Of a stretch of 64,000 bases of DNA, positions 43,739 to 61,939 are shown piece after piece (the stretch's first letter is position 1; each line of letters starts with the position of its first letter). Location: assembly GCA_029564115.1 (NCBI GenBank), contig JAKQQP010000351.1, positions 1 to 64,000 on the forward strand, read 5' to 3'. The position numbers and the translations under genes were made by a program. The notes below the pieces were generated by a model. It did not search any database, was not told the DNA's origin, and saw only the letters and a list, made by a program, of their open reading frames with translations. The stretch comes from Candidatus Rifleibacteriota bacterium (GTDB lineage: Bacteria > Riflebacteria > Ozemobacteria > Ozemobacterales > Ozemobacteraceae).

Positions 43739-43749
43739 GAGGTAACACA

Positions 43750-46700
43750 CTGTCCAATACCACACATAAATTTGTAACTACTGGCCCCTCGCAGTATCTG
43801 CGCCAGTTGATTCTGCTGCTGATCTGCACGCTGTGTGCAATAAATCTGTATGCTCAAGACGAGCAGTATGTGACACTGCGCAAATTTCTTACTGCCAGAA
43901 TGTATGGCGAGGCCTACAATGAATTGCTGCGGCTCGAACTCAGCCGCGACGAAATAGACCCGAAACTCGAGAAACTGCGAATCGATCTTCTCGAGCGCAC
44001 CAAAGAAAGGCTCCTGCGACAGGCGCGTGTCAGCCCCGATGACCCGGCTATTTTCACGATCCTGGCCGATATCGACTTCCATCAGGGCAATCTTGAAGAA
44101 GCCTCCAAAAATATCTCGAAGGCGCTGACAAACAAATCCGGGCCTGTGGCCAACTATGTTTTCGCCAAGATACTTTTCCGCAAGGGCAGTCTGGTGCAGG
44201 CTTTTGACCAGATGGGGAGCGTGCTGGAAGCCATGCCCGACTCACCTGTGGTTTTCGAAGACTTTCAGTTTCTGTATGCGTGCAAAAGCTACGGAATCGC
44301 GACCGCCCGCAAGATTTCTCGCAATACCAACTTCATCAAACGCGCGACACCTGTTGCCGCTGGCGACAACGTGCCAGAAATACCAGAGAGTCCTTTTGAA
44401 AATGACCCGACTCAGGTAGCTGCACTGCCTGCTGCCACACCCGAGCCGGTAGAAACGACACCTGCGCCAATCAACGCTGCCTCAGTTACAGAAGAAGATG
44501 ACGACCTACCGTTTCCAGATGATTCTGGTGACACTGACGAAGCCGACATTTTGCCCGACGAATCAACGGGTCTGCCGGATGAAAGCGATGAACCGGAAGA
44601 TGAAGATTTTGTCGAAGACGAACCAGCTCAGACTTCTCCGGCAAAGGATCCACAGCTGCTACCACCTCGTCCTACTCCGGTGGCCATGACGCCCGAACCG
44701 CCACAACCCGAAACCGACCCTGAAAAGGAAAACATCAAAAAAGCTGAATACTGGCTGCAACAGGCTGTCAGACAATTCGAAAACCGTAATTACGACGACG
44801 CTCAGAACAACTGGAAGTCTGCCGTGGAACTTCACGCTGACCTCCCCGGCAAAGACGAACTTAAAACCCGACTGGATGCCAAATTTGACCTTTTCAAGCG
44901 CTATAGAGAAGCCAAAGACCTGTTTGAGCTTGAAAAATACGACAAAGCTCTGCCAACGCTTGAAGAAGCATACAATGAAGAACCTGACAGGTTCAAAGAA
45001 GCCCCCTTCATGATCGGGAAAATTTATCTGCTGCAGGCTGAGCCAGATTACGACAAAGCCCTGCATTATCTCGATCTGGTGCTGAGCCAGGACAACCTCG
45101 ATCCCTTGTTCAAACGTGATATCGAATGGACAAAAATGGAAATTTTTTATGGGATGCACAGATTCGACGAGGCGAACGCCATATTTCAACGTTTCATGGC
45201 GAACGAAGAGGCTTTTGCCCGCAATCAGACAAACTTCAATCACCTGCGGATAGGGCTGTGGTACAACCTCAACAAGACCCTGGTTCACATCGGGTTTGGC
45301 GTTTTCATAGCCATGTTTCTGCTGGTTTTCGTGCTCAGACTTCTGCCGGCTATTACCATGTTGTCTGATCCCCTCAAAAGTGCGAAACGCATGTTCGAAA
45401 GCAATAAGTTTCAGAAGGCTATTGGCATCGCGGAAAAGGCCCTGCGCAGCAAACAGCCTATTCAGGTCGAGAGAGAGTTTCTCGAGATTCTCGTTAAATG
45501 CCATTTTGAGCTCAAAAATTTTGTGAGATGCCAGGAAAACGCCCGGCTTATTCTCGAAAAATTCCCTGGAAACAACATCGCCTGGAGTTATCTGGCCAAA
45601 GCCTCGATGGCCAGCCACGACACTTCGAACGAAGCCATTAGCATGTATGAAACCCTCTACAGAGAGAACCCCACCAGAAAAGAGTATCTGCCGATTCTTG
45701 CCAGACACCATGCTCAGACCGGTAACAACACGGTCGAGGCCATGAATATACTTGTCACTTACTACCAGTCGGGCGGCAAAGAACCGCCAATAGTAAAAGC
45801 CCTGGCGAACGGTTATGTGCAGAACCGTTCGATGGGTCCAGAAGTAATAGATATTCTTGAAGAAGCTCTCAAGACCGACGATAAATTAGATTACCGCGAG
45901 CTGCTGGCGCGAAATTTTTCAAAATGCGGCCGTTATGATGATGCAGCGCGTGAATGTCTGAAGGTACTCAACGAGAATATAAACAACATGGGCATACATG
46001 TCGTCTATACCTCTTCGATGAAAAAGTTAAAAAAGCTCGATACCGCAATAGACCAGTATAAAACTTTCCTGCAAAGATACCCCGGCAATCCTCAGTTAAA
46101 CGAAATATTGAACGGCCTCAAAAAAGATCTTTCAATTTTCAGCCCATCAGAAAGCGATCTTATGCAATTTCCGGAGGATCTTCCGATGCCCGATCTGCCT
46201 GAACCGGGCTTTTCCGATCATCATGAAGACATCGATCTTGAAAATTATGTAGAACCTCCCCCAGAAGGTTTTGTTATGGAAGACAGTCAGGAGACACCAC
46301 TACCAGAGTTTCTGCAAGGCGGCGAATATTCTGACGAACCGCTGCCAGACCCGCTTGGTTTCGGTGACTCAGGGCCCGGAAGACTAACGCCACAACCAAT
46401 TACCCCCGGAGGCAGACAAACCGAATTGCCACAGATCGAACTGCCGACTCTCGACCCGTTCGAAGATAATTCCGCGCTGTTCAATGAATTTGCCTCAGAG
46501 CTGCCCGAAGAGCTGGGCGGGCCGGCTGAACCACCTCTCCCGCTGCCCCCCGATTCGTTCAACCCTTACAAACAGTTACCGGTCGAAGAGCCGTCGTCAG
46601 ACGCTTTGCCGGGCAAACGCGGTTCAGACAGCATAAAATCAGCGACTGGTCAGGGGCTGACCATGAAAATAGCTGAAGCTCACGAGAAAGTCAGAGCAAG

Positions 46701-47025
46701 CAAATGGGACGACATAATCGCTCTGTTAAGCCCTGATTTTGCTTCAGAACGCAACAAAGAGGCAGGGATTCTGCTTGCAAATGCCTGGCTTGGTAAAAAT
46801 AAACCGCAGATGGCTCTTGAAATAATCGAAACTCTCGACTTCGACCCGGAATTGTTGAATGAACCCATAAAAGAAGTGCTCTACCGCACAGGGCTCGCGC
46901 TCGAAAGTGAAAAAAAACTCGATGAAGCGCTGCGGATGTATGACCTGATCTGCAGTGTAGATATTAACTTCAAAGACGCTTTTGACCGTTCCGACAAGAT
47001 CTACACCCGAAAAAAATCAGGCTGA
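43750..47025 (+). CDS. Very large membrane TPR protein, probable CTG start
   Basis: 1091 residues if started at CTG 43750, which has AGAGGT with a 7-base gap and yields a normal signal peptide ending NLYAQDEQ. The in-frame ATG at 43675 would overlap the previous gene by 64 bases and add 25 residues ahead of the signal sequence. Parts: TPR-like about 30-190, acidic/Pro-rich linker about 210-325, TPR about 330-500, membrane helix about 511-533, TPR about 545-800, a second acidic/Pro-rich linker about 800-940 and a final TPR-like segment. Same plan as its upstream neighbour (TPR, helix, TPR), so the two are likely paralogues or partners. Confidence 0.72.
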   Translation: MSNTTHKFVTTGPSQYLRQLILLLICTLCAINLYAQDEQYVTLRKFLTARMYGEAYNELLRLELSRDEIDPKLEKLRIDLLERTKERLLRQARVSPDDPAIFTILADIDFHQGNLEEASKNISKALTNKSGPVANYVFAKILFRKGSLVQAFDQMGSVLEAMPDSPVVFEDFQFLYACKSYGIATARKISRNTNFIKRATPVAAGDNVPEIPESPFENDPTQVAALPAATPEPVETTPAPINAASVTEEDDDLPFPDDSGDTDEADILPDESTGLPDESDEPEDEDFVEDEPAQTSPAKDPQLLPPRPTPVAMTPEPPQPETDPEKENIKKAEYWLQQAVRQFENRNYDDAQNNWKSAVELHADLPGKDELKTRLDAKFDLFKRYREAKDLFELEKYDKALPTLEEAYNEEPDRFKEAPFMIGKIYLLQAEPDYDKALHYLDLVLSQDNLDPLFKRDIEWTKMEIFYGMHRFDEANAIFQRFMANEEAFARNQTNFNHLRIGLWYNLNKTLVHIGFGVFIAMFLLVFVLRLLPAITMLSDPLKSAKRMFESNKFQKAIGIAEKALRSKQPIQVEREFLEILVKCHFELKNFVRCQENARLILEKFPGNNIAWSYLAKASMASHDTSNEAISMYETLYRENPTRKEYLPILARHHAQTGNNTVEAMNILVTYYQSGGKEPPIVKALANGYVQNRSMGPEVIDILEEALKTDDKLDYRELLARNFSKCGRYDDAARECLKVLNENINNMGIHVVYTSSMKKLKKLDTAIDQYKTFLQRYPGNPQLNEILNGLKKDLSIFSPSESDLMQFPEDLPMPDLPEPGFSDHHEDIDLENYVEPPPEGFVMEDSQETPLPEFLQGGEYSDEPLPDPLGFGDSGPGRLTPQPITPGGRQTELPQIELPTLDPFEDNSALFNEFASELPEELGGPAEPPLPLPPDSFNPYKQLPVEEPSSDALPGKRGSDSIKSATGQGLTMKIAEAHEKVRASKWDDIIALLSPDFASERNKEAGILLANAWLGKNKPQMALEIIETLDFDPELLNEPIKEVLYRTGLALESEKKLDEALRMYDLICSVDINFKDAFDRSDKIYTRKKSG

Positions 47026-47076: not shown

Positions 47077-47658
47077 TCAGAATTTGCCCATCAGCAGTTC
47101 GGCGTTGAGCGCCAGCCCCTCTACCCTGACGCCGGTAGCGCCGGCAAAAGTGTAACCGGCGCCGAATTCAAGTACGATGTGCCTGCTCATAGGAAGAACA
47201 CCAATAATCATCGGCTCGAAAAAGCTGAACGACCCCTTGTTGAATTCATACCCGGAAGCCCGACTGCGCAAACGATAATCGCCGACGCCAAACGATACCC
47301 GCCATTTAACGCGGGAATCTTCCCTGAATGAGTCTTCGAGGGTCAGACCAGCCATGTCGAGGTTAAATTTCTGACTTTCACCATTCAAAGTACCAGAATA
47401 AAAAACAAAGCCGATCTCAGGGTCATAAAGCCGGCCGGCAAAGGCTCTTATGCCCCATACGGTCATGTCTCCACCAAAGTTCTGCGGAGCGGCCACCCGT
47501 TTATATTTCATTATCGGCCCGACACCGTATACGTATTCGCTGCTTTTTGGCTGCGAATCCATCAGCAGCGTTGGGCCTGTCAGAGAGAAGCCGGCAGTCG
47601 CATACAGAATAAAAAGGGTTATAATCAGTAGAAATCGCTTGATTTTCATAGCGTTCAT
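47077..47658 (-). CDS. Outer-membrane beta-barrel-like protein
   Basis: 193 residues from ATG 47658, or 190 from ATG 47649; the frame extends upstream to a TTG at 47694 but no ribosome site is convincing. A signal peptide (KIKRFLLIITLFILYATAG) is followed by alternating, aromatic- and glycine-rich strands typical of small outer-membrane barrels, ending in Phe (LLMGKF), as outer-membrane proteins often do. Family not recognised. It is convergent with the TPR gene and divergent from the OmpA-fusion operon. Confidence 0.6.
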   Translation of the reverse strand: MNAMKIKRFLLIITLFILYATAGFSLTGPTLLMDSQPKSSEYVYGVGPIMKYKRVAAPQNFGGDMTVWGIRAFAGRLYDPEIGFVFYSGTLNGESQKFNLDMAGLTLEDSFREDSRVKWRVSFGVGDYRLRSRASGYEFNKGSFSFFEPMIIGVLPMSRHIVLEFGAGYTFAGATGVRVEGLALNAELLMGKF

Positions 47659-47739
47659 ATCGACAGACAATGGCTTTTTTTTCAGCAAATTCAACGCATT
47701 GGCCAGATGTCGTATAACTTCTGTAACAGTTTAAAAAGG

Positions 47740-47833: not shown

Positions 47834-49582
47834 GTGAGTAACGATGTAGGCCCAACTCCACTGGGCAAATTTGTGATGTTCATGTTCGTCATCGGCTGCA
47901 TTTTTGCAGCGGCGGTTTCCTTTTCCCCTGATCTCAAAGCAAAACTGTTTCCCTCTAATGATCAGCATAGTGGCGATTCTACTTCTTCCGGGCAGGCGAC
48001 AGCGGTAACTAAAGCGGTAAAGGTTGAAGCCCCCGATACCGCCGGGGTAACTACAGTCCAGGAATACACCTACGTGCCCAATGAATCTTTGCCGCCGGTC
48101 AGCGGAGTATCTGCCTACAAATGGGATGAAAACGACAAGACTGTCGTTTTCCCGATCAATGTCTGGTTCGGCTGGTTGCCGATTATCGCCGCCAACAATG
48201 GCTTTGCCCCTAATGAAGAAAGCGTTTTTTTCAAAAAATATGGTTTCAAAGTCAACCTGAAACTCATCGACGACCCGATCGTAGCCCGTGACGCTTTTGC
48301 TTCGGGCGAATCTCACATTCTCTGGGGTACGCTCGACATGATCGCCCTGTTCGCACCCGGCTTGATGAAAGACAGCCGCACCGCGCCACGCGTTTTCCAG
48401 CAGGTAGACTGGTCGAGCGGTGGCGACGGCATTGTCGTTCGCGGCAACATTCGATCAGTAAAAGATCTCGAAGGCAAAACCATCGTTTATGCCCAGAACA
48501 GTCCTTCACAGTATTTCATCACCAATCTGCTGCTCAACGCCGGAATACCGCTGAAAAATGTTAACCACAAGTTCACGACTACAGCTTTCGAAGCAGCAGC
48601 TGCCTTTGTCGCCGATAAAAGTATCCATGCCTGCGTAAGCTGGGCGCCCGATATTTACACGATCCCCGAAAAAATTGCCGGAACCCATATTCTTACCACA
48701 ACTGCCGATGCCAATCGCCTCATCACTGACGTTTGGGCTGCCCGCGCCGACTTTGCCAAAGATCACCCTGATATTATCGAAGGCCTGGTCGCCGGCATCT
48801 TCGAAGGCATGGGAATGCTCAAAAACGATACGATTAAAACCAAAGCTTTTGCCCATATGGCAGAAGGCTATGGCATGAAAATCGAAGATATCAAGTCGAT
48901 GGAACAGGACGCCTACATTACTAATTTTGCCGAGAACCAGAATTTCTTTCTGAACAAAAACAGCCCGACAAACTTCGAAAGAACCTGGAAAAACATCATT
49001 TTCGTCTATCGAGAGCTTGGCCAGATTGGTACTCCGGTTCGTTTTGACGAAGTCGTAGACTTTTCTGTCGTCAAAAAATTCGCCGATAAAAACATGTTTG
49101 CCGACCAAAAAGATGTTCAGGTCAGCCGTTTCGTCTCTACCAGCTACAAAAAGGTTTCAGCAGAAGCACCGGTTCTGACGCAGACTGTCAGAATCAACTT
49201 TTACCCCAACTCTGACAACATCTACGAACCTGAACACGATGAATTCGGTCAGGCAATACCCAACACCCTTTATGACCCCACCGTCGATGCGACTCTCGAG
49301 AAAATCGCCCGCATGGTTGGGCAGTATGACCGTGCTCAGGTTGCCATAGTCGGTCACACAGACAGTTCCATGAAGGGCAAAGTCCCGGAAAAGGCTGTCA
49401 AAGACCTTTCCAGCGATCGCGCCAACTCGGTTCGCAGCGCCCTGGTGCGCAAATACAAGTTCGCCAGAGAAAAGTTCATAGTTGAAGGCAAAGGCTGGTC
49501 GGAGCCGGCAGACTCTGCCGACCCAATGAATCAGGCCCTCAATCGCCGCGTCGAAATCCAGGTTTTTACCCCAGAAAAATAA
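47834..49582 (+). CDS. Substrate-binding domain fused to OmpA domain (copy 1)
   Basis: 582 residues, GTG start with a strong AGGAGG site. N-terminal hydrophobic segment about 12-32, probably an uncleaved anchor (a VIGC lipobox-like match is possible but hydrophobic residues follow). Residues about 90-400 are an NMT1/SsuA-type periplasmic binding domain (FPINVWFGWLPIIAANNGFA, SGGDGIVVRG, LEGKTIVYAQNSPSQYF), the kind that feeds nitrate/taurine-class ABC importers. Residues about 455-580 are an OmpA C-terminal peptidoglycan-binding domain (VGHTDSS, LSSDRANSV, LNRRVEIQVF). Such a fusion would tether the binding protein to the cell wall. A paralogue lies at 50392. Confidence 0.9.
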   Translation: MSNDVGPTPLGKFVMFMFVIGCIFAAAVSFSPDLKAKLFPSNDQHSGDSTSSGQATAVTKAVKVEAPDTAGVTTVQEYTYVPNESLPPVSGVSAYKWDENDKTVVFPINVWFGWLPIIAANNGFAPNEESVFFKKYGFKVNLKLIDDPIVARDAFASGESHILWGTLDMIALFAPGLMKDSRTAPRVFQQVDWSSGGDGIVVRGNIRSVKDLEGKTIVYAQNSPSQYFITNLLLNAGIPLKNVNHKFTTTAFEAAAAFVADKSIHACVSWAPDIYTIPEKIAGTHILTTTADANRLITDVWAARADFAKDHPDIIEGLVAGIFEGMGMLKNDTIKTKAFAHMAEGYGMKIEDIKSMEQDAYITNFAENQNFFLNKNSPTNFERTWKNIIFVYRELGQIGTPVRFDEVVDFSVVKKFADKNMFADQKDVQVSRFVSTSYKKVSAEAPVLTQTVRINFYPNSDNIYEPEHDEFGQAIPNTLYDPTVDATLEKIARMVGQYDRAQVAIVGHTDSSMKGKVPEKAVKDLSSDRANSVRSALVRKYKFAREKFIVEGKGWSEPADSADPMNQALNRRVEIQVFTPEK

Positions 49583-49603
49583 TATTTCCAAAGGAGCTGG
49601 AAA

Positions 49604-50362
49604 ATGTTCAAACGCTTGATGAATCTAATACGTGGTTTCTTCAGTCTGTTTATCAGGGGGCTCGAATCAAGCAATCCTGAAGCCCTGATCGAAGCTGAAA
49701 GAGAAAATCTGAAGCACCAGATCAGCCGCTATAACGAAAATCTGGCCAATCAGGCCGCATTTATCGAACGCCTGATGCGTCAGGTAAAAACATTGGCCGC
49801 CAAAGAAAAAGAATTGACCGCAAAGATTACCGCCAACCTCAAGGCGGGCAACAACAGAGTTGCCGGCCAGCTGGCTCTGCAGCTGCAGACTGTCAAGCAG
49901 CAGCTCGACGAAAATCAGTCTCAGCTTGAAATTGCCGACAAAACCTACAAAGATCTCGAGAAGTCTCGCGACGTAGCCGTTCGCGAAGCTCAGATGAAGA
50001 TCGAAAAACTGCAGAATCTTCTCAGCGAAGCTCAAATGCACGAAGCCCAGGCCGAGCTCCAGGAAATGGCAAAAGGCATGATCACCAGCATCGGCTCGAG
50101 CGGCGACACCATCAACAGAGTCACCGAACTTCTCGAAGAACGCCGCGACAAAGCCGCTGGCCGTTCTAGAGTTGCCGCCGGCTCTTATGACAGTTCTCAG
50201 GTCACCATGAAAGAAGCCGAAATGGAAGCTCTCGGTGACGCAGCCCTCGCTGAATTTGCCGCCATGAACGGCATTGCAATGCCAGGAGCCGGTCAACCCC
50301 TTGCCGAAGGTGAATCTGATGATGTTCCGCAGCGCGGCATGGGCCCGATGCAGAAAAATTGA
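49604..50362 (+). CDS. PspA/IM30-like coiled-coil protein
   Basis: 252 residues. Amphipathic N-terminal helix (MFKRLMNLIRGFFSLFIRGLE), long coiled coil about 25-160, helical tail and a Gly/Pro-rich end; this is the PspA/IM30 (ESCRT-III superfamily) layout. PspA relatives polymerise on stressed membranes and remodel them. Ribosome site AAAGGAG. It sits between the two SBP-OmpA genes, 21 bases after the first and 29 before the second. There is no PspB, PspC or PspF nearby. Sequence similarity looks moderate, so the family call is by architecture. Confidence 0.72.
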   Translation: MFKRLMNLIRGFFSLFIRGLESSNPEALIEAERENLKHQISRYNENLANQAAFIERLMRQVKTLAAKEKELTAKITANLKAGNNRVAGQLALQLQTVKQQLDENQSQLEIADKTYKDLEKSRDVAVREAQMKIEKLQNLLSEAQMHEAQAELQEMAKGMITSIGSSGDTINRVTELLEERRDKAAGRSRVAAGSYDSSQVTMKEAEMEALGDAALAEFAAMNGIAMPGAGQPLAEGESDDVPQRGMGPMQKN

Positions 50363-50391
50363 ACGAAAACATATTTTTTAAGGAGCAAGAG

Positions 50392-52041
50392 ATGTATTTA
50401 AGAGGAAAACTGTTTCTGGTTATCATGGCTTTACTGGCATTCTGTTGCGGCGCTCTTCAGGCACAGGAAGCAGCTGTGGTCGAAGCCCCCGACACTGAAT
50501 CCGTAACCACGGTCAAGGAATATAAATTTGTACCTCGTGAAACCCTGCCTCCAGTGCAGGGCACTTCTGCCTACAAATGGGATGAAAAGGAAAAAATCGT
50601 AGTTTTCCCCATCAACGTCTGGGCCGGGTGGTTGCCGATTATCGCAGCCAACAATGGCTTTGCTCCGAATGAAGACAGCATTTTCTTCAAAAAATATGGT
50701 TTCAAAGTCAATCTGAAACTCATCGACGACCCGGTGGTCGCCAGAGACTCTTTTGCCAGCGGCGAAAGTCATGTTCTGTGGGGCACTCTCGACATGATGG
50801 TTCTGTTTGCCTCTGAACTGATGAAAGACAGCCGTACTGCACCGAGAATCTTCCAACAGGTAGACTGGTCAAGCGGCGGCGACGGCATTGTTGCCCGCAG
50901 CAAAATTCGTTCAGTTGCCGACCTCAAGGGCAAGACCATTGTCTACGCACAAAACAGCCCATCACAGTATTTTATCAGCAACCTCCTGATCAATGCAGGC
51001 ATCGGCCTTGATGAAGTAACTCACAAATATACTTCGACGGCTTTTGAAGCTGCCGCAGCCTTTGTCTCTGATGCAAGCATAGATGCGTGCGTCAGCTGGG
51101 CTCCCGACATTTATACTATTCCTGAAAAAATCGCCGGCACCCGCATACTTACCACCACCGCCGAAGCCAACAAGCTGATCGCCGACGTGTGGGCGGCTCG
51201 TGCCGACTTCGCCCGCGACAAACCCGAAATCATCAAAGGCCTTGTTGCAGGTATCTTCGAAGGCATGGATATGCTCGAAAACCCGACCACCAAGGCACAA
51301 GCTTTCCAATGGATGGCTGATGGCTACGGCATGAAGGTTGAAGATGTGAAGGCAATGGAAGCAGACTCTCACTCAACCAACTTTGCCGAAAACCGCGAAT
51401 TCTTCATGAATGCCAACAATCCAACCAACTTTGAACGCACCTGGAAAAGTATCGCCTACGTTTACAACCAGGCCGGGCTGGTCAAAGAAGCCGTTCCTTT
51501 CAACCAGATCATGGACTTCACGATCATGGAGGAACTTGAAAAAGATGGTCAGTTCAAACACCACAAAGACAACTATGTAAGCAAATTCGTACCCACTACC
51601 TATTCAAAAGTCAACGCCGAAGCCCCGATCATCACTCAGACTGTCAGAATCAACTTCTACCCGAATTCTGCCAACATCTACGAACCGGCGCATGATCTCA
51701 CCGGCAATGCCATTGCCAACACGCTCTATGACCCGAATATCGAAGCCACCCTCGAAAAGGTCGCCCGTCTCGTCGGTGCTTATGACCGCGCCGTTGTCGC
51801 CATTACCGGGCACACTGACAGTTCTATGAAGGGCAAAATACCTGAAAAGATCGTCAAAGACCTCAGTATGAACCGTGCCGAAGCCGTCAAAAAAGCTCTG
51901 GTCGACAAATACAAATTCGACGCCAAAAAATTCGTGGTTGAAGGCGAAGGCTGGAATAAGCCCGCTGACCTCGATAACCCCATGAATCAGGCCCTGAACC
52001 GCCGGGTAGAAATCTCCGTATTTCCGCCAGAAAGCAACTGA
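50392..52041 (+). CDS. Substrate-binding domain fused to OmpA domain (copy 2)
   Basis: 549 residues from ATG 50392 (AAGGAG upstream). Unlike copy 1 it has a typical cleavable signal peptide ending near LQAQEA. The rest is collinear and highly similar to copy 1: binding domain with FPINVWAGWLPIIAANNGFA, LIDDPVVARD and TIVYAQNSPSQYF, then an OmpA domain with TGHTDSS, LSMNRAEAV and LNRRVEISVF. It is soluble periplasmic but wall-bound, by prediction. Tandem duplication with the pspA-like gene caught between the copies. Confidence 0.9.
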   Translation: MYLRGKLFLVIMALLAFCCGALQAQEAAVVEAPDTESVTTVKEYKFVPRETLPPVQGTSAYKWDEKEKIVVFPINVWAGWLPIIAANNGFAPNEDSIFFKKYGFKVNLKLIDDPVVARDSFASGESHVLWGTLDMMVLFASELMKDSRTAPRIFQQVDWSSGGDGIVARSKIRSVADLKGKTIVYAQNSPSQYFISNLLINAGIGLDEVTHKYTSTAFEAAAAFVSDASIDACVSWAPDIYTIPEKIAGTRILTTTAEANKLIADVWAARADFARDKPEIIKGLVAGIFEGMDMLENPTTKAQAFQWMADGYGMKVEDVKAMEADSHSTNFAENREFFMNANNPTNFERTWKSIAYVYNQAGLVKEAVPFNQIMDFTIMEELEKDGQFKHHKDNYVSKFVPTTYSKVNAEAPIITQTVRINFYPNSANIYEPAHDLTGNAIANTLYDPNIEATLEKVARLVGAYDRAVVAITGHTDSSMKGKIPEKIVKDLSMNRAEAVKKALVDKYKFDAKKFVVEGEGWNKPADLDNPMNQALNRRVEISVFPPESN

Positions 52042-52094
52042 CACAAATCTGCCGGGTGGGCAAAAAGCCCACCCGGTCGCCCTGGAGATGAAAC

Positions 52095-53411
52095 ATGAAA
52101 CTCACTTTGCACGAGAACTTTTTTGGCATAAGAACCGGTGTTAAGCTGGTCGACCAAATCATTCTTGGCGTAATCCCGATCTTTCTGATTTTTCTTCTCT
52201 GGGTATTCGTCACCTCCGGCAAGACAGTTACCATAATATTGCCAGAAGGCACTTTTGAAGGTTTCGAAAAGAACCCGCCCCCCGAAGGCACCCTGTTCAG
52301 AGAAAAAGTGCGCCTCACCATCGACAACAGCACTCACGAACTGAAAGATTCAGCTAATGATAGTCTGCTGTCTTACCTGCTCAAAGACGGCGAAAAATTC
52401 GAACTTGGCCATATTCCGGCTCGCCCTTTTGGTAAAAGCGTCAGGTTAACCATGCCCCCTGGCAGGTATATCGGCAGAGAAAAACTGCCACCGGCAAAAC
52501 CTGATAAAGCACCGGCAAAGCCTGATTCTGAACTTTTAAAGACCACTCCTGTAAGCGAAAATGTTTCAGAGAGCACTCCAGACCTAGAAACCACTCCGCC
52601 TGACGACGACCATCGGGCTGAAGCTGCTTCTCCGTCAACAGAAGCCGCTGCCGCGTCTACGGCGCCAGCTGCGTCACCGATTTTTCCGCTGCTGAAATTC
52701 AAATATCGCTATGAAATCGTTGAAACACGCCTGATAAGCCCATCGATGCTGCCAAGCCCCGGAGAAGTCTACCGATCTTTGCCTTCTTTGTGGTCTGACA
52801 GATCTCTACCCAAAAATATTCTTTACAGTTTTCTTCGAGTTGGGGCTGGTTTTATCGTCGCCTTCCTCATAGTTTTTCCCATGGCTCTTTTAATGGGCAC
52901 CTTCAGCAAATTCAAGGCTCTGATAGCACCATTGATGCTTTTCGGCGGCTACTTGCCAATCCCGGCGCTGGTACCGCTGTTCATGATTCTTTTTGGCACA
53001 AACGAGCTGCAGAAAGTCATGTTTCTGGCCTTCGGCTTCGCAATTTATCTGCTTCCCCTCTTCGTAAAATATCTCGATGAAGTAGATAACGTCTATCTGC
53101 AGACTGGTTATACCCTCGGTGCCAATAAATTTCAGATACTCAACAACATCCTTCTGCCAATAGCGCTGCCGAATATGTTTGATGCCATGCGGCTCGGCTT
53201 CGGCATTGGCTGGGGCTACATCATTCTTGCTGAAATGGTCGACATGGGCAGTTTCGGAGTAGGTACACTCATTTTGACGAGTCAGCGTCGCGGACCGCGC
53301 GAAGATATCTACCTGGTGCTCATTGCAATCGTCATTATGGCCTTCATCACTGACAAAATCTGGGATAAAGTCGGGCAGCAGTTATTCCCCTACAGGAGCC
53401 AGAAACGATGA
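52095..53411 (+). CDS. ABC importer permease with long insertion
   Basis: 438 residues. First membrane helix about 22-42; then about 150 residues of extra sequence: a small folded part (about 50-130) and a Pro/Ala/Ser/Glu-rich linker (about 135-200); then a permease core of the SsuC/TauC/NrtB class with five or six helices and the EAA-type loop (TLGANKFQILNNILLPIALP). The extension is not seen in ordinary members of this class. Ribosome site GGAGATG. The ATPase gene overlaps its stop by ATGA. Confidence 0.87.
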   Translation: MKLTLHENFFGIRTGVKLVDQIILGVIPIFLIFLLWVFVTSGKTVTIILPEGTFEGFEKNPPPEGTLFREKVRLTIDNSTHELKDSANDSLLSYLLKDGEKFELGHIPARPFGKSVRLTMPPGRYIGREKLPPAKPDKAPAKPDSELLKTTPVSENVSESTPDLETTPPDDDHRAEAASPSTEAAAASTAPAASPIFPLLKFKYRYEIVETRLISPSMLPSPGEVYRSLPSLWSDRSLPKNILYSFLRVGAGFIVAFLIVFPMALLMGTFSKFKALIAPLMLFGGYLPIPALVPLFMILFGTNELQKVMFLAFGFAIYLLPLFVKYLDEVDNVYLQTGYTLGANKFQILNNILLPIALPNMFDAMRLGFGIGWGYIILAEMVDMGSFGVGTLILTSQRRGPREDIYLVLIAIVIMAFITDKIWDKVGQQLFPYRSQKR

Positions 53412-54676
53412 GCGAGCAGTCACCCCAAAAAGTTTCAATATTTCGCAAAATCGCCGGTTATTTTTACAGGTTTGACGACCATAACCCCGCTCTCCAGATC
53501 AAAGACCGGACAAAATCACAAAAAATGGTGCCGGCAAAAGTCGCCGAAAAATCTTCCAGGCACACTGATGCGAGCACCGGCAACAATCCTCCCGCCAGGT
53601 CGGTGGCAGCAGACAAAGACACTGTTGTCGACCGCTCTCCGGTTGAAAAGAATTGTGTAAATACCGAAAAAAGCCATGCTCAGGAAGGTTTTCCGTTTCC
53701 TGAAGAGCCAAAGAATGCTGTTTCAGAGACGCACAAACAAACCCATGTCGCTGGCACAAGCCCCAAAGCTGCCGCAGACAAAGCACCGGCTATCGTTTCA
53801 TCAGGTGCAAACGAACTCGATGCTATGGAGCCGGCTGTCACCAAACCAAAATACCCACCGATCGTCACCTTCAGAAATGTCAGCAAAATTTTTAACCCGG
53901 GCACTCCGAATGAGTTTATGGCCCTCAAAAACGTTTCTTTCGAAATCGAAGATCTGCCAGATATTGGCGAATTCATTGCCCTTGTCGGGCCTTCAGGCTG
54001 TGGCAAGTCAACTGTATTGAACCTGATCCAGGGTTTTCAGGAAGTCGGGCCGCCGAGCTACGGCGAAGTTCTGGTGCGCAACAAACCAGTCACCGGGCCA
54101 GGTCGCGACCGCGGCATGATCTTTCAAAAATACAGCTCGTTCCCGCACCTGACCGTATTACAGAACGTCATGTTCGGCCTGCATCTGAATCGCGAATCAC
54201 TCGGCTACCCTGAACACGTCATGGAAAAGCTTGCCCGGGAAATGATCGCCAAGGTTGGCATGAAAGGACACGAAGACAAGTATCCTTATCAGCTTTCCGG
54301 TGGTCAGCAGCAACGCGTTGCCATTGCCCGCACTCTCGTTCTCAAACCCAGAATAATTCTGATGGACGAGCCCTTTTCGGCACTCGATGAACCGACCAGA
54401 ATCGAAATGCAGGAATTGATTACAGCCCTGTGGCATGAGGTCGAAGCGACCGTTTTCATAGTGACGCATTCACTTGCCGAGGCCGTATATCTGAGTGACC
54501 GCATTTTCATGTTCAAGGCCAACCCCGGTCAGTTGATGAAGCAGATCAGCATCACCCATGACGATATCGGCAAATATGAGGGCATGACGCCTCTTGAAGT
54601 TCAGGAAAGCCCCAAATTCAACAATTTTCTTAAAAATATCACCGACGAATTCTTGAGAATAGGTGGCTCAGAATAA
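53408..54676 (+). CDS. ABC importer ATPase with N-terminal extension
   Basis: 422 residues; about 150 more than SsuB/TauB relatives. The extension (1-150) is Lys/Pro/Ala/Ser-rich and probably disordered. The nucleotide-binding domain has Walker A GPSGCGKST (about 194), Q-loop MIFQKYSSFP, signature LSGGQQQR (about 297) and Walker B IILMDEPFSALDE. It should pair with the permease whose stop codon it overlaps and with the SBP-OmpA proteins. The unusual extension mirrors the insertion in the permease and may contact it or the PspA/AAA partners. Confidence 0.9.
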   Translation: MSEQSPQKVSIFRKIAGYFYRFDDHNPALQIKDRTKSQKMVPAKVAEKSSRHTDASTGNNPPARSVAADKDTVVDRSPVEKNCVNTEKSHAQEGFPFPEEPKNAVSETHKQTHVAGTSPKAAADKAPAIVSSGANELDAMEPAVTKPKYPPIVTFRNVSKIFNPGTPNEFMALKNVSFEIEDLPDIGEFIALVGPSGCGKSTVLNLIQGFQEVGPPSYGEVLVRNKPVTGPGRDRGMIFQKYSSFPHLTVLQNVMFGLHLNRESLGYPEHVMEKLAREMIAKVGMKGHEDKYPYQLSGGQQQRVAIARTLVLKPRIILMDEPFSALDEPTRIEMQELITALWHEVEATVFIVTHSLAEAVYLSDRIFMFKANPGQLMKQISITHDDIGKYEGMTPLEVQESPKFNNFLKNITDEFLRIGGSE

Positions 54677-55561
54677 ATGAAACTACGCCGCAAGCCTGGT
54701 TACTCAGATTATCTGACCGAGGCATTCAACGCCGGCCTTGTCATCAAGGGCATGGGCGAAATCCCTGTAAACAAACTTTTCATTCTCGGCTCTTTTATCT
54801 TGGGCTTCAGCAACCCAGGCTTCTGGATGCTTGGACTGGCATTTGAAGTGATTTATCTCTGGTTTCTCACGTCTAATGAACGGTTTCAGAAGTATGTCCA
54901 GGGCAAACAGCTGTCTCAAATTCAGCAGTCAAGATCAGAAAAGATGAACGAGCTGATAGCCAGTCTGACCCCTGAAAATCATTCTCGCCTCAAGCGTCTG
55001 AATGCGAATCTGGCCGAAATAAACAAGCTCATGAACTGGAACATAGATGAAGGCGCCGGTTTCATGAACCAGAGCCGACAGCAGACCCTCAATCAGCTGC
55101 CGTCGATATTTCTCAAACTGCTCAAAACAAAACAGCTGATCGAAGAAAGCCTGCATCGCACCAAGCCTTCAGAAATCAGCAATGAAATCAAAAAACTTGA
55201 ACAGCAGATGAGTAGCGGCATGAGCCCTGCGCTGGCCAAATCACTGCAGGGCAACATAGAGATTCATAAAAAACGCCTTGATAATCTCGGTGTTGCCAAA
55301 GAAAATGAAATGCTGGTCGAAATGGAACTGCAGCGCATCGAAAGCCAGCTGCACCTGGTCAGAGAAGAAATTGCCCTCGACAGCAGCCCTGAAGGGCTCA
55401 GCAACAATATCGACAAAATAAACAACACACTCGGAGAAACCCAGGACTGGATCAACAGCCATTCTGACTTTCTTCGTAAGCTCAGTGGCCCACCCATCGA
55501 TACCCCTGAATTTGAAATGGACGTGGAGCCGGTATTACCACCAAACCGCGAAATCGAATAA
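54677..55561 (+). CDS. Membrane-anchored coiled-coil protein
   Basis: 294 residues; the ATG follows the ATPase stop without a gap. Residues about 30-68 form two close hydrophobic segments (a hairpin or re-entrant anchor), after which about 85-280 is almost all helical with strong heptads. No family recognised. Its position between the ABC genes and the AAA ATPase suggests it is a membrane adaptor within the same complex. Confidence 0.72.
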   Translation: MKLRRKPGYSDYLTEAFNAGLVIKGMGEIPVNKLFILGSFILGFSNPGFWMLGLAFEVIYLWFLTSNERFQKYVQGKQLSQIQQSRSEKMNELIASLTPENHSRLKRLNANLAEINKLMNWNIDEGAGFMNQSRQQTLNQLPSIFLKLLKTKQLIEESLHRTKPSEISNEIKKLEQQMSSGMSPALAKSLQGNIEIHKKRLDNLGVAKENEMLVEMELQRIESQLHLVREEIALDSSPEGLSNNIDKINNTLGETQDWINSHSDFLRKLSGPPIDTPEFEMDVEPVLPPNREIE

Positions 55562-55576
55562 AAAGGAAGCTGCACT

Positions 55577-57373
55577 ATGGCAAATTACCCTGAATGGGCC
55601 AGAGAAATGGCCGAAATTTTTAAAAGCGGTTCAATCAGCCAGTTCGTTCTTTACGGCAACATCGATGACTGGGTTACCTATGCCTCCGAAGACTCACAAC
55701 AGCTGCAATGCCTTTCTCTGAAAGATTTTCTGACCCGCGTGATGTTCGCCCCTTTCGAGGTGGTATTGACTTATGACCGTGGTCACGGCATAAGAGCTGC
55801 CAAGGGCGGCGAACTGTTTTTTAATTTTCTCAAGGCCTACGACAGTTTTCATCGAACCTCTTTCGCCACTTCGCCAGACGGCGACATCACTGCCGACAGC
55901 GCCAACTCGCTTCCCAAAGACCCAAAACGCGCTCTAGCGCTGATAGACAGATTTATCAGACACGGACTGGTTCGCACCACTGCCGACAAAAGCGGCAAAC
56001 CGGTCGCCAACCCGATGCGAACCGCGATCATAGTCGAATATGCTCAGTATCTTCTGCCACGGGCCGAGATCGCCTACACCAGTTCCGAGTCGGTAGAAAC
56101 TCTGATCAGAGTTTTAGATTGGGCCTCCGACCCCAATATCAACAACGCCTATGTCAGTACCTGTCTGATTGCCGAAAACCTCAACGACGTCAACCGTCAG
56201 CTGGTCGAGAACCCACGCTCGGCCAAAATTCAGATAAGTCTTCCGGATGCTGAAACCGTATTGAACTTCGTACAGACCGTCACCTCTGCAATCCCGGATT
56301 TTTCTTCGATCTGCGATGTCGACAGGGCTTCTCTGGCGCAAAAACTTGAAGGTTTGTCGTGCATTGACGTGCAGAATCTTATCGAGCGGGCAATAAAAAA
56401 CCAGCGGCGCATTTCAATGGAATATCTGCGCGAAGTCAAAAAGGAAATGATCGAAAAATCGGCAGGTGGCCGAATTGTTTTTGTTGAATCCACACGCAAC
56501 CTCGATGATGTCGCCGGCCACTCAGAAGCCAAAGCCTGGCTGCGTCAGGATGCCTCGTTGATGAAACGCGGCAAGATAAAAGCTTTACCAATGGGTTATC
56601 TTATTACCGGCCGTATTGGAACCGGCAAAACCTATCTGGTCGAGTGCTTCGCCGGCGAAGCAGGCGTTCCCTGTGTTGAACTCAAGAATTTTCGCGACAA
56701 GTGGGTAGGTGCCACCGAAGGCAATCTTGAAGCCATTTTTAAAATTCTGCATGCTATGGGTCAGGTTATCGTTTTTATCGACGAAGCCGATCAGGTAGCG
56801 GGAAAACGTGACAGCAACTCTGGCGATTCCGGAGTATCGGGGCGCATATACGCGATGTTGGCCAGGGAGATGGCTGACACACGCAATCGCGGGCGCATAT
56901 TCTGGATCTTTGCAACCTCTCGACCAGACTTGCTCGAAGTAGATCTGAAACGCGTAGGGCGCCTCGATGTGCATATTCCGCTATTTGCCCCTCAGACAGA
57001 AGAAGACAAAAAAGACCTGTTCAAGGCTCTTGCCCGCAAAAACAAGGTCAAACTCGAAGATTCCGATCTGCCTGTGTTCCCTGACAGTCTTGATATCGGC
57101 GGCAATGAAATGGAAGGCATTCTGATCATGGCCTCGCGCATGTTCGAACTGCAGGAAGAAAACGACCCGGAGCGCAAACCGGTAGGGCACTTCATTGCCG
57201 AAGCGGTAAAAAACTACCGACCAATGGCCCACTCATCGCGACTTGAATTCATGGATCTCGCAGCGGTCGTGGAGTGCACAGACCAAAGATTTCTGCCCGA
57301 AAAATTTGCAAAACTCGATATGGAAGACGCCAAAAGGCGCATGGACGACCTGAAGCTCGAAATCAGCGATTGA
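55577..57373 (+). CDS. Two-domain AAA ATPase, first domain degenerate
   Basis: 598 residues. The N-terminal half (about 15-300) has AAA-like strands (TAIIVEYAQYLL in the Walker B place, STCLIAENLNDV in the sensor place) but no P-loop. The second half (about 305-560) is active-looking: Walker A GRIGTGKT (about 346), pore loop KWVGATEGN, Walker B VIVFIDEAD (about 397), sensor-1 ATSRPD, arginine finger RVGRLD. The KWVG pore loop resembles Vps4/katanin enzymes; the two-half plan resembles Ycf46-type proteins. Ribosome site AAGGAAG. Last gene of the SBP-OmpA/PspA/ABC operon; likely remodels one of its members. Confidence 0.87.
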   Translation: MANYPEWAREMAEIFKSGSISQFVLYGNIDDWVTYASEDSQQLQCLSLKDFLTRVMFAPFEVVLTYDRGHGIRAAKGGELFFNFLKAYDSFHRTSFATSPDGDITADSANSLPKDPKRALALIDRFIRHGLVRTTADKSGKPVANPMRTAIIVEYAQYLLPRAEIAYTSSESVETLIRVLDWASDPNINNAYVSTCLIAENLNDVNRQLVENPRSAKIQISLPDAETVLNFVQTVTSAIPDFSSICDVDRASLAQKLEGLSCIDVQNLIERAIKNQRRISMEYLREVKKEMIEKSAGGRIVFVESTRNLDDVAGHSEAKAWLRQDASLMKRGKIKALPMGYLITGRIGTGKTYLVECFAGEAGVPCVELKNFRDKWVGATEGNLEAIFKILHAMGQVIVFIDEADQVAGKRDSNSGDSGVSGRIYAMLAREMADTRNRGRIFWIFATSRPDLLEVDLKRVGRLDVHIPLFAPQTEEDKKDLFKALARKNKVKLEDSDLPVFPDSLDIGGNEMEGILIMASRMFELQEENDPERKPVGHFIAEAVKNYRPMAHSSRLEFMDLAAVVECTDQRFLPEKFAKLDMEDAKRRMDDLKLEISD

Positions 57374-57385
57374 GCAGCGGGCAGC

Positions 57386-57856
57386 TCAGGCTACGAATTC
57401 TTGTTCAAGGCAGAGGAATTTGGTGAAACGGAGCGTCGTGCCTGCACCGGGCGAAGAAATCAGTTCGTATCTGTCTGATAGAAGGCTTATCAGGCCCAGA
57501 CCGCGGCCACGAGTCGAGTTAAGACTGCGCAGGTTTTTTGGGATCTGAACTCCGGACAGGTCAAAGCCACAGCCTGTGTCTTTGACACAGACCTCGAGCC
57601 TGTCTTTGAAAATCAGAAACTCTACCTCGAGTTGTGATTCGCAGCTGGTCCTGGCACCGTGCTCTATTGCGTTGGCATAAGCCTCATCGACGATCATGGC
57701 CAGTTCGAAAACCTGGTCTTCGTCAAAACCCATCCGCCTTGCGATTACTTCGGTATTGTCTCTGATCACTCTCAAATAACAAGGCTTTTCAAATTTAAAA
57801 AGCACCTGTTCTGGAAATTTTCTTTGTCCCATCTTTTTTTGCCCCAATATAAGCAT
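57386..57856 (-). CDS. Anti-sigma-factor-type serine kinase (RsbW/SpoIIAB-like HATPase)
   Basis: 156 residues (ATG 57856) or 148 (ATG 57832). GHKL ATPase fold: MIVDEAYANAIEHG (N-box), VKDTGCGFD (G1) and TRGRGLGLISLLSD (G2), as in HATPase_c_2 proteins that phosphorylate anti-anti-sigma factors. No sigma factor or STAS gene is adjacent. It could oppose the PP2C phosphatase at 8583, or be tied to the neighbouring convergent operon. The role is inferred. Confidence 0.85.
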   Translation of the reverse strand: MLILGQKKMGQRKFPEQVLFKFEKPCYLRVIRDNTEVIARRMGFDEDQVFELAMIVDEAYANAIEHGARTSCESQLEVEFLIFKDRLEVCVKDTGCGFDLSGVQIPKNLRSLNSTRGRGLGLISLLSDRYELISSPGAGTTLRFTKFLCLEQEFVA

Positions 57857-59774: not shown

Positions 59775-60759
59775 AATTAAACTGCTGCTGTTATTTACTT
59801 TTCTGTTGGTTATGCTGCTGACAAATACACCTTCACACGGGCAATATTCAGTTTTGCAGAGTGAAGAACCCAGACTGCGGGCGATTCTTTACCACCCCAA
59901 CAACCCCAGAGCACTTGTTTATTACAATTCGCAGCGTTTTCATGCCGTTGCGCACACCCGCATCGACGCAGAGTGGTATATTGAAGAAATCAGGAGAGAA
60001 AGCGTTCTTTTCAAGAGAACCTCAACGCGAAGCTTCGCCGAAATTTTCTTGAATGCACCGCAAAAGGCAAGATTTCACAAAGACAGCTCTTTTTATGGGC
60101 ACCCTGTTGCACTCTGGGAAGCCATAGAACTTCTAGCACAGGGTTTCGGCTATCAGGCCGTGATGCACTTTCAGGCAGGCGGAGCAGTACTGCCGGCCCA
60201 CCACGGCAACACAATCGGCAAACTGCTAAAAAAAATACTGCCACCGCACCATCGTTTCGATTTCGACGGCCCTGTTCTGATGGTTTTACCTGTGAAGCCC
60301 TCGGGCGAAGAATGGACCGAAGTGCTCCAAAGAATGCGACTTTGCGTCCCTGATCGTCTTGCAATGCGTTATCCCGGTTTAAACAAGCAGGGGGTAATTT
60401 TATCACGCGGCGATGACATTCAATTCGTATTGCGAAAAATTTCTCTCGGCGGCAAGGTTCCCATTCAGTTTCCTCGCGACCTGCATTTTCCAGTTTACGC
60501 CACTTTCCGCAATATTCCCTTCTCACAGATGCTGGCCAAGATACTCTACCTCAACCAGTGCATACTGATCGAACGCGAAGAAGGCCTCGAAGTAACCCCA
60601 TGGCCAAGACAGATCCTTCAAAGACGTCCATACGCAGACTTTCCGCACTTAAAATCGCTGCCAATCGAGCCACAAAAGGGTTCGGGGCCAATGCCACCGC
60701 CCCTGATCACAGAACACCTGCTCGATCACCCATTTGTTCAACAGAATCAGGAGTTCTGA
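59761..60759 (+). CDS. Periplasmic hypothetical protein with STN/PilP-like segments
   Basis: 332 residues; ATG overlaps the asd stop by 14 bases. Signal peptide about 1-27. Residues about 40-100 (LVYYNSQRFHAVAHTRIDAEWYIEEI) resemble the small beta domain of PilP/GspC proteins, and about 240-290 (PFSQMLAKILYLNQCILIE) an STN-type domain found before secretins. No secretin barrel is present. Both resemblances are weak. Function unknown; possibly an envelope-assembly accessory. Confidence 0.6.
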   Translation: MIFFRIKLLLLFTFLLVMLLTNTPSHGQYSVLQSEEPRLRAILYHPNNPRALVYYNSQRFHAVAHTRIDAEWYIEEIRRESVLFKRTSTRSFAEIFLNAPQKARFHKDSSFYGHPVALWEAIELLAQGFGYQAVMHFQAGGAVLPAHHGNTIGKLLKKILPPHHRFDFDGPVLMVLPVKPSGEEWTEVLQRMRLCVPDRLAMRYPGLNKQGVILSRGDDIQFVLRKISLGGKVPIQFPRDLHFPVYATFRNIPFSQMLAKILYLNQCILIEREEGLEVTPWPRQILQRRPYADFPHLKSLPIEPQKGSGPMPPPLITEHLLDHPFVQQNQEF

Positions 60760-60760
60760 C

Positions 60761-61939
60761 ATGCCAGATTTCAAACTTGCCTTGCAAAAATGCGATTCAT
60801 ATACGCCAGAACAGGTTGAAAAGGCAGTCGGTCAGCTGTTAAAAGGCCTTGGCGGCATAGAACGCTTCGTCAGCCCCGGGCAGAGAGTATTGATAAAGCC
60901 CAACATGCTTACCTGCAAAGATCCTTCAAAAGCGGCGACAACCCACCCGCTTCTCATCGAAGAAATAGCCCGGCTGTGCGTCAGACGCGGTGCCAGCGTT
61001 GTCATCGGCGACAGCCCACCGGCAATTTTTGGCCGAACTGAATCTTTCTGGGAAACAACCGGCTTTGCTGCTGCAGCCCGCAACAGTGGCGCAGAGCTTC
61101 GCTGTTTTGAGACAGACGAAAAGGTCACGCTGAAATTCTTTTCGAACGGCAGAGAAATAACCACCCACGTCGTTAAAACATTGTTTAGAGCGGATGTAGT
61201 TATCAATCTGGCCAAAATGAAAACCCACAATCTGACACGCATCACTGGTGCAGTCAAAAATCTGTTCGGTTTGATTCCGGGGTTTGCTAAAGCGCAATGG
61301 CACAAAGCCTTTCCCCGCCCTGAAGAATTCGCCGATTTTATCAGCGATTTCGCCCACCAGATTCCGGTCACTCTCAACATCATGGATGGCATAGAAAGCA
61401 TGGACGGTCAGGGACCGGCGGGCGGGCGCGTAGTAAAAAGCGGTGTATTGCTTGCATCGACCTGCCCTGTAACTGTTGACATGGGCTTTTGTAGACTGAT
61501 AAATCTCGACCCGACGACTGTTCCAACTTTGCGAAGATGCCGACAGCTGAACTGGGGACCAAAGAGCTTTGCAGAAATTACCTTTATAGGTCAGCAGCCC
61601 GATGAAGTGGCGATAAGCAATTTTTCGGTTCCGAAAACTCCGCCCTTGTCGCTGATTCCAGACTTTATTCTTAAGGGCATAAAAAAATTTCTCTGGACCG
61701 GACCGGCGCTGCTGCCGAAAAAATGCATCAAATGCGGTCGATGTCGCGAAATATGCCCGGTTTTGGCGATAAATATAGGTGCAGAAGGCGCTGAATTCGA
61801 TCGAAAGCTCTGTATTTCGTGCTTCTGCTGTATGGAAGTCTGCCCGGTCGAAGCAATCGAAATGAAATCGAGCCCACTGCTCTCTATCGGCATGCGACTT
61901 CGCGGGCTGAAAAGAAGTCTGAGAAAGCAACGCAAATGA
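60761..61939 (+). CDS. DUF362 domain protein with two 4Fe-4S clusters
   Basis: 392 residues from ATG 60761 (AGGAG upstream). Residues about 1-300 match the DUF362 family (RVLIKPNMLT, VVIGDSPP, NLAKMKTHNLTRITGAVKN, DGIESMDGQGP). The C-terminus has a two-cluster ferredoxin domain: CIKCGRCREICP and CISCFCCMEVCP, with all eight Cys. It is a likely redox or metal-handling protein of unknown substrate. The stop overlaps the acyltransferase ATG (ATGA). Confidence 0.88.
   Translation: MPDFKLALQKCDSYTPEQVEKAVGQLLKGLGGIERFVSPGQRVLIKPNMLTCKDPSKAATTHPLLIEEIARLCVRRGASVVIGDSPPAIFGRTESFWETTGFAAAARNSGAELRCFETDEKVTLKFFSNGREITTHVVKTLFRADVVINLAKMKTHNLTRITGAVKNLFGLIPGFAKAQWHKAFPRPEEFADFISDFAHQIPVTLNIMDGIESMDGQGPAGGRVVKSGVLLASTCPVTVDMGFCRLINLDPTTVPTLRRCRQLNWGPKSFAEITFIGQQPDEVAISNFSVPKTPPLSLIPDFILKGIKKFLWTGPALLPKKCIKCGRCREICPVLAINIGAEGAEFDRKLCISCFCCMEVCPVEAIEMKSSPLLSIGMRLRGLKRSLRKQRK

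Follow-up and report, generated by a model that had tools for sequence, protein, structure and literature searches.

Here we describe a seven-gene operon from a Candidatus Rifleibacteriota bacterium (assembly GCA_029564115.1). It lies at 47834-57373 in the first 64,000 nucleotides of contig JAKQQP010000351.1, and this whole stretch is referred to as the window. The seven adjacent open reading frames (ORFs), all on the + strand, encode in the order S1-P-S2-M-C-T-A a substrate-binding protein (SBP) fused to OmpA (S1), a PspA (P), a second SBP-OmpA (S2), an ABC permease (M), an ABC ATPase (C), a membrane coiled coil (T) and an AAA ATPase (A). At about even odds (roughly 0.5) we read the ensemble as an ATP-driven membrane-maintenance machine to which a wall-tethered importer is attached. 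The reading draws on gene order, domains, motif conservation and co-occurrence, on loci and genomes which carry PspA and AAA and lack the importer, and on the association of a C-terminal PspA tag with the AAA protein.

A first-pass annotation, made from the letters of the window, knew of no description of the full set as one system. Such a description exists. The extracts of Ravi et al. (2024, mSystems, PMC11237479) already unite in one operon PspA, a 'Snf7 homolog' with a transmembrane (TM) segment, a two-domain AAA+ protein with an inactive N-terminal copy, an ABC ATPase, a permease and PBPB-OmpA, and propose ATP-dependent membrane remodelling tied to solute transport. PspA, the AAA+ protein with its inactive N-terminal copy, the ABC ATPase, the permease and PBPB-OmpA are all present at the locus examined here, which differs by its two SBP-OmpA genes. 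In the same extracts we did not find the PspA tag, the split into core and add-on, or the membrane anchor of S. Full-text searches of open-licence PubMed Central (PMC) listed no experimental study of the operon.

The gene set is conserved

The predicted genes were present as ORFs, and NMT1 and OmpA (in both S1 and S2), PspA_IM30, BPD_transp_1, ABC_tran and AAA matched above the Pfam cut-offs. From S1 to A the six junctions measure 21, 29, 53, -4, 0 and 15 bases. The tight spacing noted earlier (0-53 bases or ATGA overlaps) was borne out, with a single ATGA overlap, between permease and ABC ATPase. These values assume that S2 starts at ATG 50392. This ATG, which is preceded by AAGGAG, was preferred to the mechanical TTG start at 50359, which overlaps pspA. 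S1 starts with GTG, and AGGAGG is located five bases ahead.

A scan with an alignment of the AAA protein confirmed 383 relatives. The best 80 loci were kept, and in 48 of them the sequence ahead of the AAA gene covers 7 kb or more. In 32 of these 48 loci, under many phylum labels, all six families were found together in a single same-strand run. The first-pass proposal that a wall-tethered binding-protein/ABC module and a PspA/AAA module form one conserved set, present beyond its source genome, is therefore supported. The order is mostly P-S-M-C-T-A, with S-P-S-M-C-T-A in eight Riflebacteria-type loci; the deviant listed orders PSCMTA and MPSCTA accompany over-long mechanical ORFs. A divergent Acidobacteriota copy (L212) also runs P-S-M-C-T-A. 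The remaining 16 loci consist of A alone (6), P-A (4), M-C-T-A (2), P-T-A (1) and T-A-P types with neither M nor C in the run (3). In one of the six A-alone loci (L054) P-S-M-C-T is located 1.7 kb upstream, and in one of the two M-C-T-A loci (L083) P-S follows a few genes downstream.

Among the titles of full-set loci, which are submitters' labels, are Riflebacteria, several classes of Acidobacteriota, Aminicenantes, Eisenbacteria, Krumholzibacteriota, Edwardsbacteria, Fischerbacteria, Deltaproteobacteria, Fibrobacter and Planctomycetota. Most of the close relatives with a name are Candidatus Riflebacteria, Rifleibacterium and Ozemobacteraceae. In a tree of the AAA protein (quick search, SH-aLRT support only) the window forms a pair with L004, which is a Riflebacteria metagenome-assembled genome (MAG). 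Two records titled Erysipelotrichia (L005) and Methylomirabilis (L010) branch within the Riflebacteria AAA clade; they are probably mislabelled or mixed bins.

At the level of whole genomes the system is patchy and its parts co-occur. Among 199 Acidobacteriota genomes SBP-OmpA was detected in 8 (E 1e-60), the AAA protein in 9 (E 1e-100) and both in 6, a hypergeometric probability of 2.9e-8, or 4.8e-7 when the centre genome is left out. The 39 genomes of the window's phylum contained AAA in 23, SBP-OmpA in 18 and both in 16 cases, and in the phylum to which G028 (titled as a planctomycete) belongs, SBP-OmpA was found in 17 of 199 genomes; divergent copies score under the E thresholds of these counts.

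PspA and AAA look like the core of the system

Four loci titled as ruminant-gut MAGs (L012, L013, L019, L020) consist of P-A only, and by eye the gene upstream of the pair resembles a metabolic enzyme. In four ruminant-gut Riflebacteria genomes (G006, G009, G241, G242) the AAA gene is retained with PspA adjoining (L111-L114), and genome-wide searches of these MAGs gave no match for SBP-OmpA, T or M; C was not searched for. The four ruminant-gut rows of the AAA tree form one clade (support 100) inside a clade of 14 rows (support 100). The whole operon is carried by the window and by the six other loci of this larger clade whose upstream sequence reaches 7 kb (L005, L006, L007, L008, L010, L011). 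Because the gut rows nest among full-operon loci, the importer and T were probably lost in ruminant-gut Riflebacteria while PspA-AAA was kept. Subsets also occur elsewhere: P-A alone in L063, L065 and L080, P-T-A in L062 and L208, and in L209-L211 a P-T pair lacking AAA. From this distribution PspA-AAA looks like the core and the importer like an add-on, and the genomes with PspA-AAA only indicate that the AAA half can be independent of the transporter. The first-pass suggestion that the transporter half signals to the membrane-remodelling half, or is repaired by it, is conjectural.

A C-terminal PspA tag tracks the AAA protein

In the alignment a variable linker of PspA is followed by a conserved C-terminal motif, mostly [KR]x[MLI]GP. 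[MLIV]GP was present within the last 25 residues of 54 of 58 distinct system PspAs, a count in which rows truncated by the end of a locus, or containing X close to the C-terminus, were dropped and near-identical C-termini counted once. Among the four others, GMGN is the ending of two, a third carries the motif further from the C-terminus, and the last is the second PspA copy of L072. A looser count, which comprises 59 rows because cut rows were retained, had K or R two places ahead of the hydrophobic tag residue in 53. The P-A-only or P-T-A loci checked retain [MLIV]GP in 8/8 cases, with K/R in 7/8. The second PF04012 protein was untagged in 4/4 system genomes (G007, G017, G019, G026). A single PF04012 match above cut-off was obtained in 13 of 18 genomes checked, and the only match of G004 was just under the cut-off.

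Two tagged PspAs, those of G080 and G092, had no AAA gene inside their 14-kb stretches (L206, L207); an AAA protein was predicted elsewhere in the genome and was found in both. Among 16 Acidobacteriota genomes AAA was present in 4/4 with a tagged PspA (G080, G092, G039, G091) vs 2/12 untagged (Fisher p 0.008). These are 16 of the 20 eligible genomes with a non-system PspA, with G050, G055, G089 and G094 left out; one of the 24 PspA rows (L200) was masked in the C-terminus comparison. As AAA was already known in G039, G058, G071 and G091, the blind part is reduced to 12 genomes, 2/2 tagged vs 0/10 untagged (p 0.015). The tag thus tracks the AAA protein and is therefore a candidate docking signal, which we liken to the MIT-interacting motif (MIM) of ESCRT-III. 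That the putative docking site indeed serves AAA is a tentative proposal by analogy, somewhat short of even odds.

The PspAs of two divergent full-type systems (L212, L215) lack the GP tag and have the common ending QKTM, perhaps a different tag. In L209, L210 and L211 PspA adjoins a T-like protein, with neither AAA nor GP tag, and AAA was not found in the respective whole genomes (G067, G103, G054).

The AAA protein is a tandem with an inactive N-terminal copy

By fold matches over residues 3-582, A has a tandem AAA fold, and the counterpart of its N-terminus in other tandem AAA proteins is their first AAA domain. In 45/45 family members no Walker A motif occurs within the first 290 residues; Walker A, DEAD and GRLD were present in 45/45. 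W376 and G378 were invariant in the alignment. Vps4 carries an N-terminal MIT domain and disassembles the ESCRT-III polymer in an ATP-dependent manner. No MIT domain was found in the AAA protein (Pfam, E 0.1); unlike in Vps4, a degenerate second AAA domain takes its place. Unlike in ESCRT-III the PspA tag consists of a short GP peptide, and an action of AAA on PspA is putative. By analogy we regard such an action as likely, and with appreciably more confidence than the docking site. PADLOC returned only single-protein ATPase or coiled-coil matches (IetA, mad3/mad8, AriA, JetC and the like) and no partner set of any anti-phage system.

The model of T (pLDDT 87.1) consists of a hydrophobic hairpin, helices 31-43 and 48-66, and long antiparallel helices; its best 19-residue hydropathy is 1.5. 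T had no Pfam match above cut-off and no fold match was found. Against the PspA profile hhalign gave 0.8%. T may be the Snf7 homolog with TM segment of Ravi et al. (2024, PMC11237479; extracts), although in our comparisons no relation of T to either Snf7 or PspA was detected. Snf7 was not among the 25 Pfam families listed for 49 T members, and PF03357 did not hit the T locus in eight genomes, a search in which the control genomes likewise gave no match above the cut-off.

The importer half carries a binding protein probably held at the wall

SBP, permease and ATPase fit the families of NitT/TauT-type importers (TauABC, SsuABC, NrtABC) above Pfam cut-offs. Unlike in these, the SBP is fused to OmpA and is usually anchored N-terminally. 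Both OmpA domains matched PF00691 (42.2 and 44.3 bits, cut-off 27.2). D510 and R529, which we take to be the Asp and Arg of the OmpA-like domain that contact diaminopimelate, were invariant in 28/28 SBP-OmpA sequences. A short N-terminal tail and a T..GK-type pattern followed by a hydrophobic stretch were seen in 26/28; the stretch was judged by eye, with hydropathy computed for the window only. The exceptions are S2 of the window, which is signal-peptide-like, and L059, which is lipoprotein-like. Judged from these features SBP-OmpA probably bridges the inner membrane and the peptidoglycan.

Extra parts had been noted on all three ABC components. The OmpA fusion is indeed conserved among relatives. 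From its length the N-terminal extension of the permease is lineage-specific, with 402-453 aa in the 10 listed Riflebacteria-type loci with a permease (window included) and 265-349 aa elsewhere; L031 (1160 aa, an over-long ORF) and the cut L038 (204 aa) and L073 (177 aa) were set aside. The extension of the ABC ATPase is not general. The protein has 290 aa in L011 of the window's clade and 248-304 aa in many non-Riflebacteria loci, a comparison which is less clear-cut because many mechanical ORFs are over-long. The ligand-specific equivalog cut-offs of NCBIfam were missed by SBP (at best 68.6 of 333.9, TIGR03427), permease (96.8 of 295) and ATPase (193.5 of 357), and because the scores are far below these cut-offs no ligand can be named.

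Proposed mechanism and alternatives

From the above we infer an action of A on PspA, docking by the tag, a role of T, a ligand, and a coupling of the two halves with its direction. At the inner face of the cytoplasmic membrane PspA would polymerise on stressed membrane. The tandem AAA, with a dead N-terminal and an active C-terminal ring, would grip PspA by its C-terminal tag and pull subunits out, or remodel and recycle the polymer, as does Vps4 with ESCRT-III. As a membrane hairpin that bears a coiled coil, T would keep the machine at the membrane and perhaps help to draw AAA. The binding proteins, tied to peptidoglycan by OmpA and in the case of S1 also to the inner membrane, would feed the NitT/TauT-type permease and ABC ATPase. 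Transport, or wall/membrane contact, would be coupled to the PspA machine. Set between wall and membrane, S-M-C may import a ligand for envelope upkeep or report the state of wall and membrane. We consider some functional coupling, in either direction, to be an evenly balanced proposition. A more far-reaching version, to which we give distinctly less credence, is that the tandem AAA is the dedicated Vps4-equivalent of the bacterial ESCRT-III, PspA. Its inactive N-terminal ring would read a portable [KR]x[MLI]GP tag and thread PspA into the active ring; the wall-tethered importer parts would have been built on and then shed in ruminant-gut Riflebacteria.

Several points weigh against the maintenance machine with attached importer. 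What is established is anatomy and associations. G058 and G071 contain AAA and a full-type set with an untagged PspA. The compared genomes are related, thus their independence is overstated by the p values. Only 24/45 AAA proteins match KW[VIL]G, the pattern of the pore loop, because K varies. In two Eremiobacterota-type loci (L079, L082) neither PspA nor T lies close to AAA, and at the threshold used G247 and G248 contained SBP-OmpA but no AAA. Lastly, absences at the genome level depend on MAGs whose completeness is unknown, and the searches of gut genomes covered S, T and M but not C. In L079 and L082 unassigned genes of similar size neighbour AAA.

Conversely, the importer might be the main device and PspA, T and AAA its assembly and quality-control factors; AAA would then extract or refold the permease complex and PspA would seal the surrounding membrane. 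This would fit the tight packing of C, T and A, with junctions of 0 and 15 bases, and the fact that SBP-OmpA is the best conserved component: across 43 loci and the window mean pairwise identities were 0.65 for SBP-OmpA, 0.58 for ABC ATPase, 0.55 for AAA, 0.53 for PspA, 0.51 for permease and 0.36 for T. However, PspA-AAA persists where S, M and T were not found genome-wide, and P-A or P-T-A is free-standing in L062, L063, L065, L080 and L208. We consider this explanation unlikely.

Equally improbable in our view is that S-M-C has ceased to be a transporter and is an envelope sensor, for a ligand or for the wall-to-membrane distance, which drives PspA/AAA via C and T. A tie to the wall, and probably to the membrane, in most lineages is unusual for a shuttling binding protein and would suit a sensor. 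Yet permease and ATPase score above the Pfam cut-offs, and a reading by eye of C had Walker A, signature and Walker B stretches intact; on present evidence sensing and transport are indistinguishable. A mere co-regulation of neighbours, importer and PspA/AAA being made under a common envelope stress without contact, could account for subsets which stand alone (P-A, P-T in L209-L211, A without the others), yet is quite improbable in view of an identical composition and a mostly kept order across distantly labelled genomes and divergent copies (L212), the S/A co-occurrence and the joint absence of S, M and T.

Features of the locus and neighbouring genes

Upstream of the operon are a 1116-aa TPR protein (43675-47025, +) and a small divergent protein of 205 aa (47077-47694, -) with a signal-peptide-like start and no Pfam or NCBIfam match. 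Minus-strand ORFs of 188-232 aa occupy the position of the latter in L005-L008 and L010, a correspondence in position only. Convergent to the AAA gene and 12 bases behind it is an RsbW-like HATPase_c_2 protein (57386-57856, -); similar-sized minus-strand ORFs are found at its place in several Riflebacteria-type loci. A DUF362/4Fe-4S protein is encoded further downstream (60734-61939, +).

Table 1. Coordinates of the operon genes and of selected motifs in the window.
Feature	Positions	Strand	Evidence
S1, SBP (NMT1/NitT-TauT type) fused to OmpA, 582 aa; N-terminal hydrophobic anchor, residues 13-31	47834..49582	+	PF09084 and PF00691 above cut-off; computed hydropathy
P, PspA/IM30 family, 252 aa	49604..50362	+	PF04012, 43.2 bits (cut-off 33.9)
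M-G-P of the conserved PspA C-terminal tag, residues 246-248	50339..50347	+	PspA alignment
S2, second SBP-OmpA; signal-peptide-like N-terminus	50392..52041	+	PF09084, PF00691; AAGGAG at 50380-50385
M, ABC permease, 438 aa; N-terminal extension, lineage-specific by length	52095..53411	+	PF00528, 50.7 bits; length comparison
C, ABC ATPase, 422 aa; N-terminal extension of ~150 aa	53408..54676	+	PF00005, 103.9 bits, residues 173-323
T, predicted hydrophobic hairpin and long coiled coil, 294 aa	54677..55561	+	No Pfam match above cut-off; model pLDDT 87.1
A, tandem AAA, 598 aa; N-terminal AAA-like domain without Walker A, C-terminal AAA active-looking	55577..57373	+	PF00004, 91.5 bits; fold matches, residues 3-582; motifs
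Walker A of the C-terminal AAA domain of A, GRIGTGKT, residues 345-352	56609..56632	+	G..G.GK[TS] in 45/45 family members

Implications

The importer half is of unusual design in that its binding protein is apparently tied to both the inner membrane and the peptidoglycan. In the extracts of Liu et al. (2021, PMC8281802) the question whether PspA or Vipp1 has an ATPase that fills the part of Vps4 is described as not clear. With a conserved AAA partner, a minimal version of two genes retained in lineages that lack the importer, and a PspA tag associated with the partner, this question becomes a two-protein test, and the tag shared among PspA tails makes the role of the AAA motor easy to examine.

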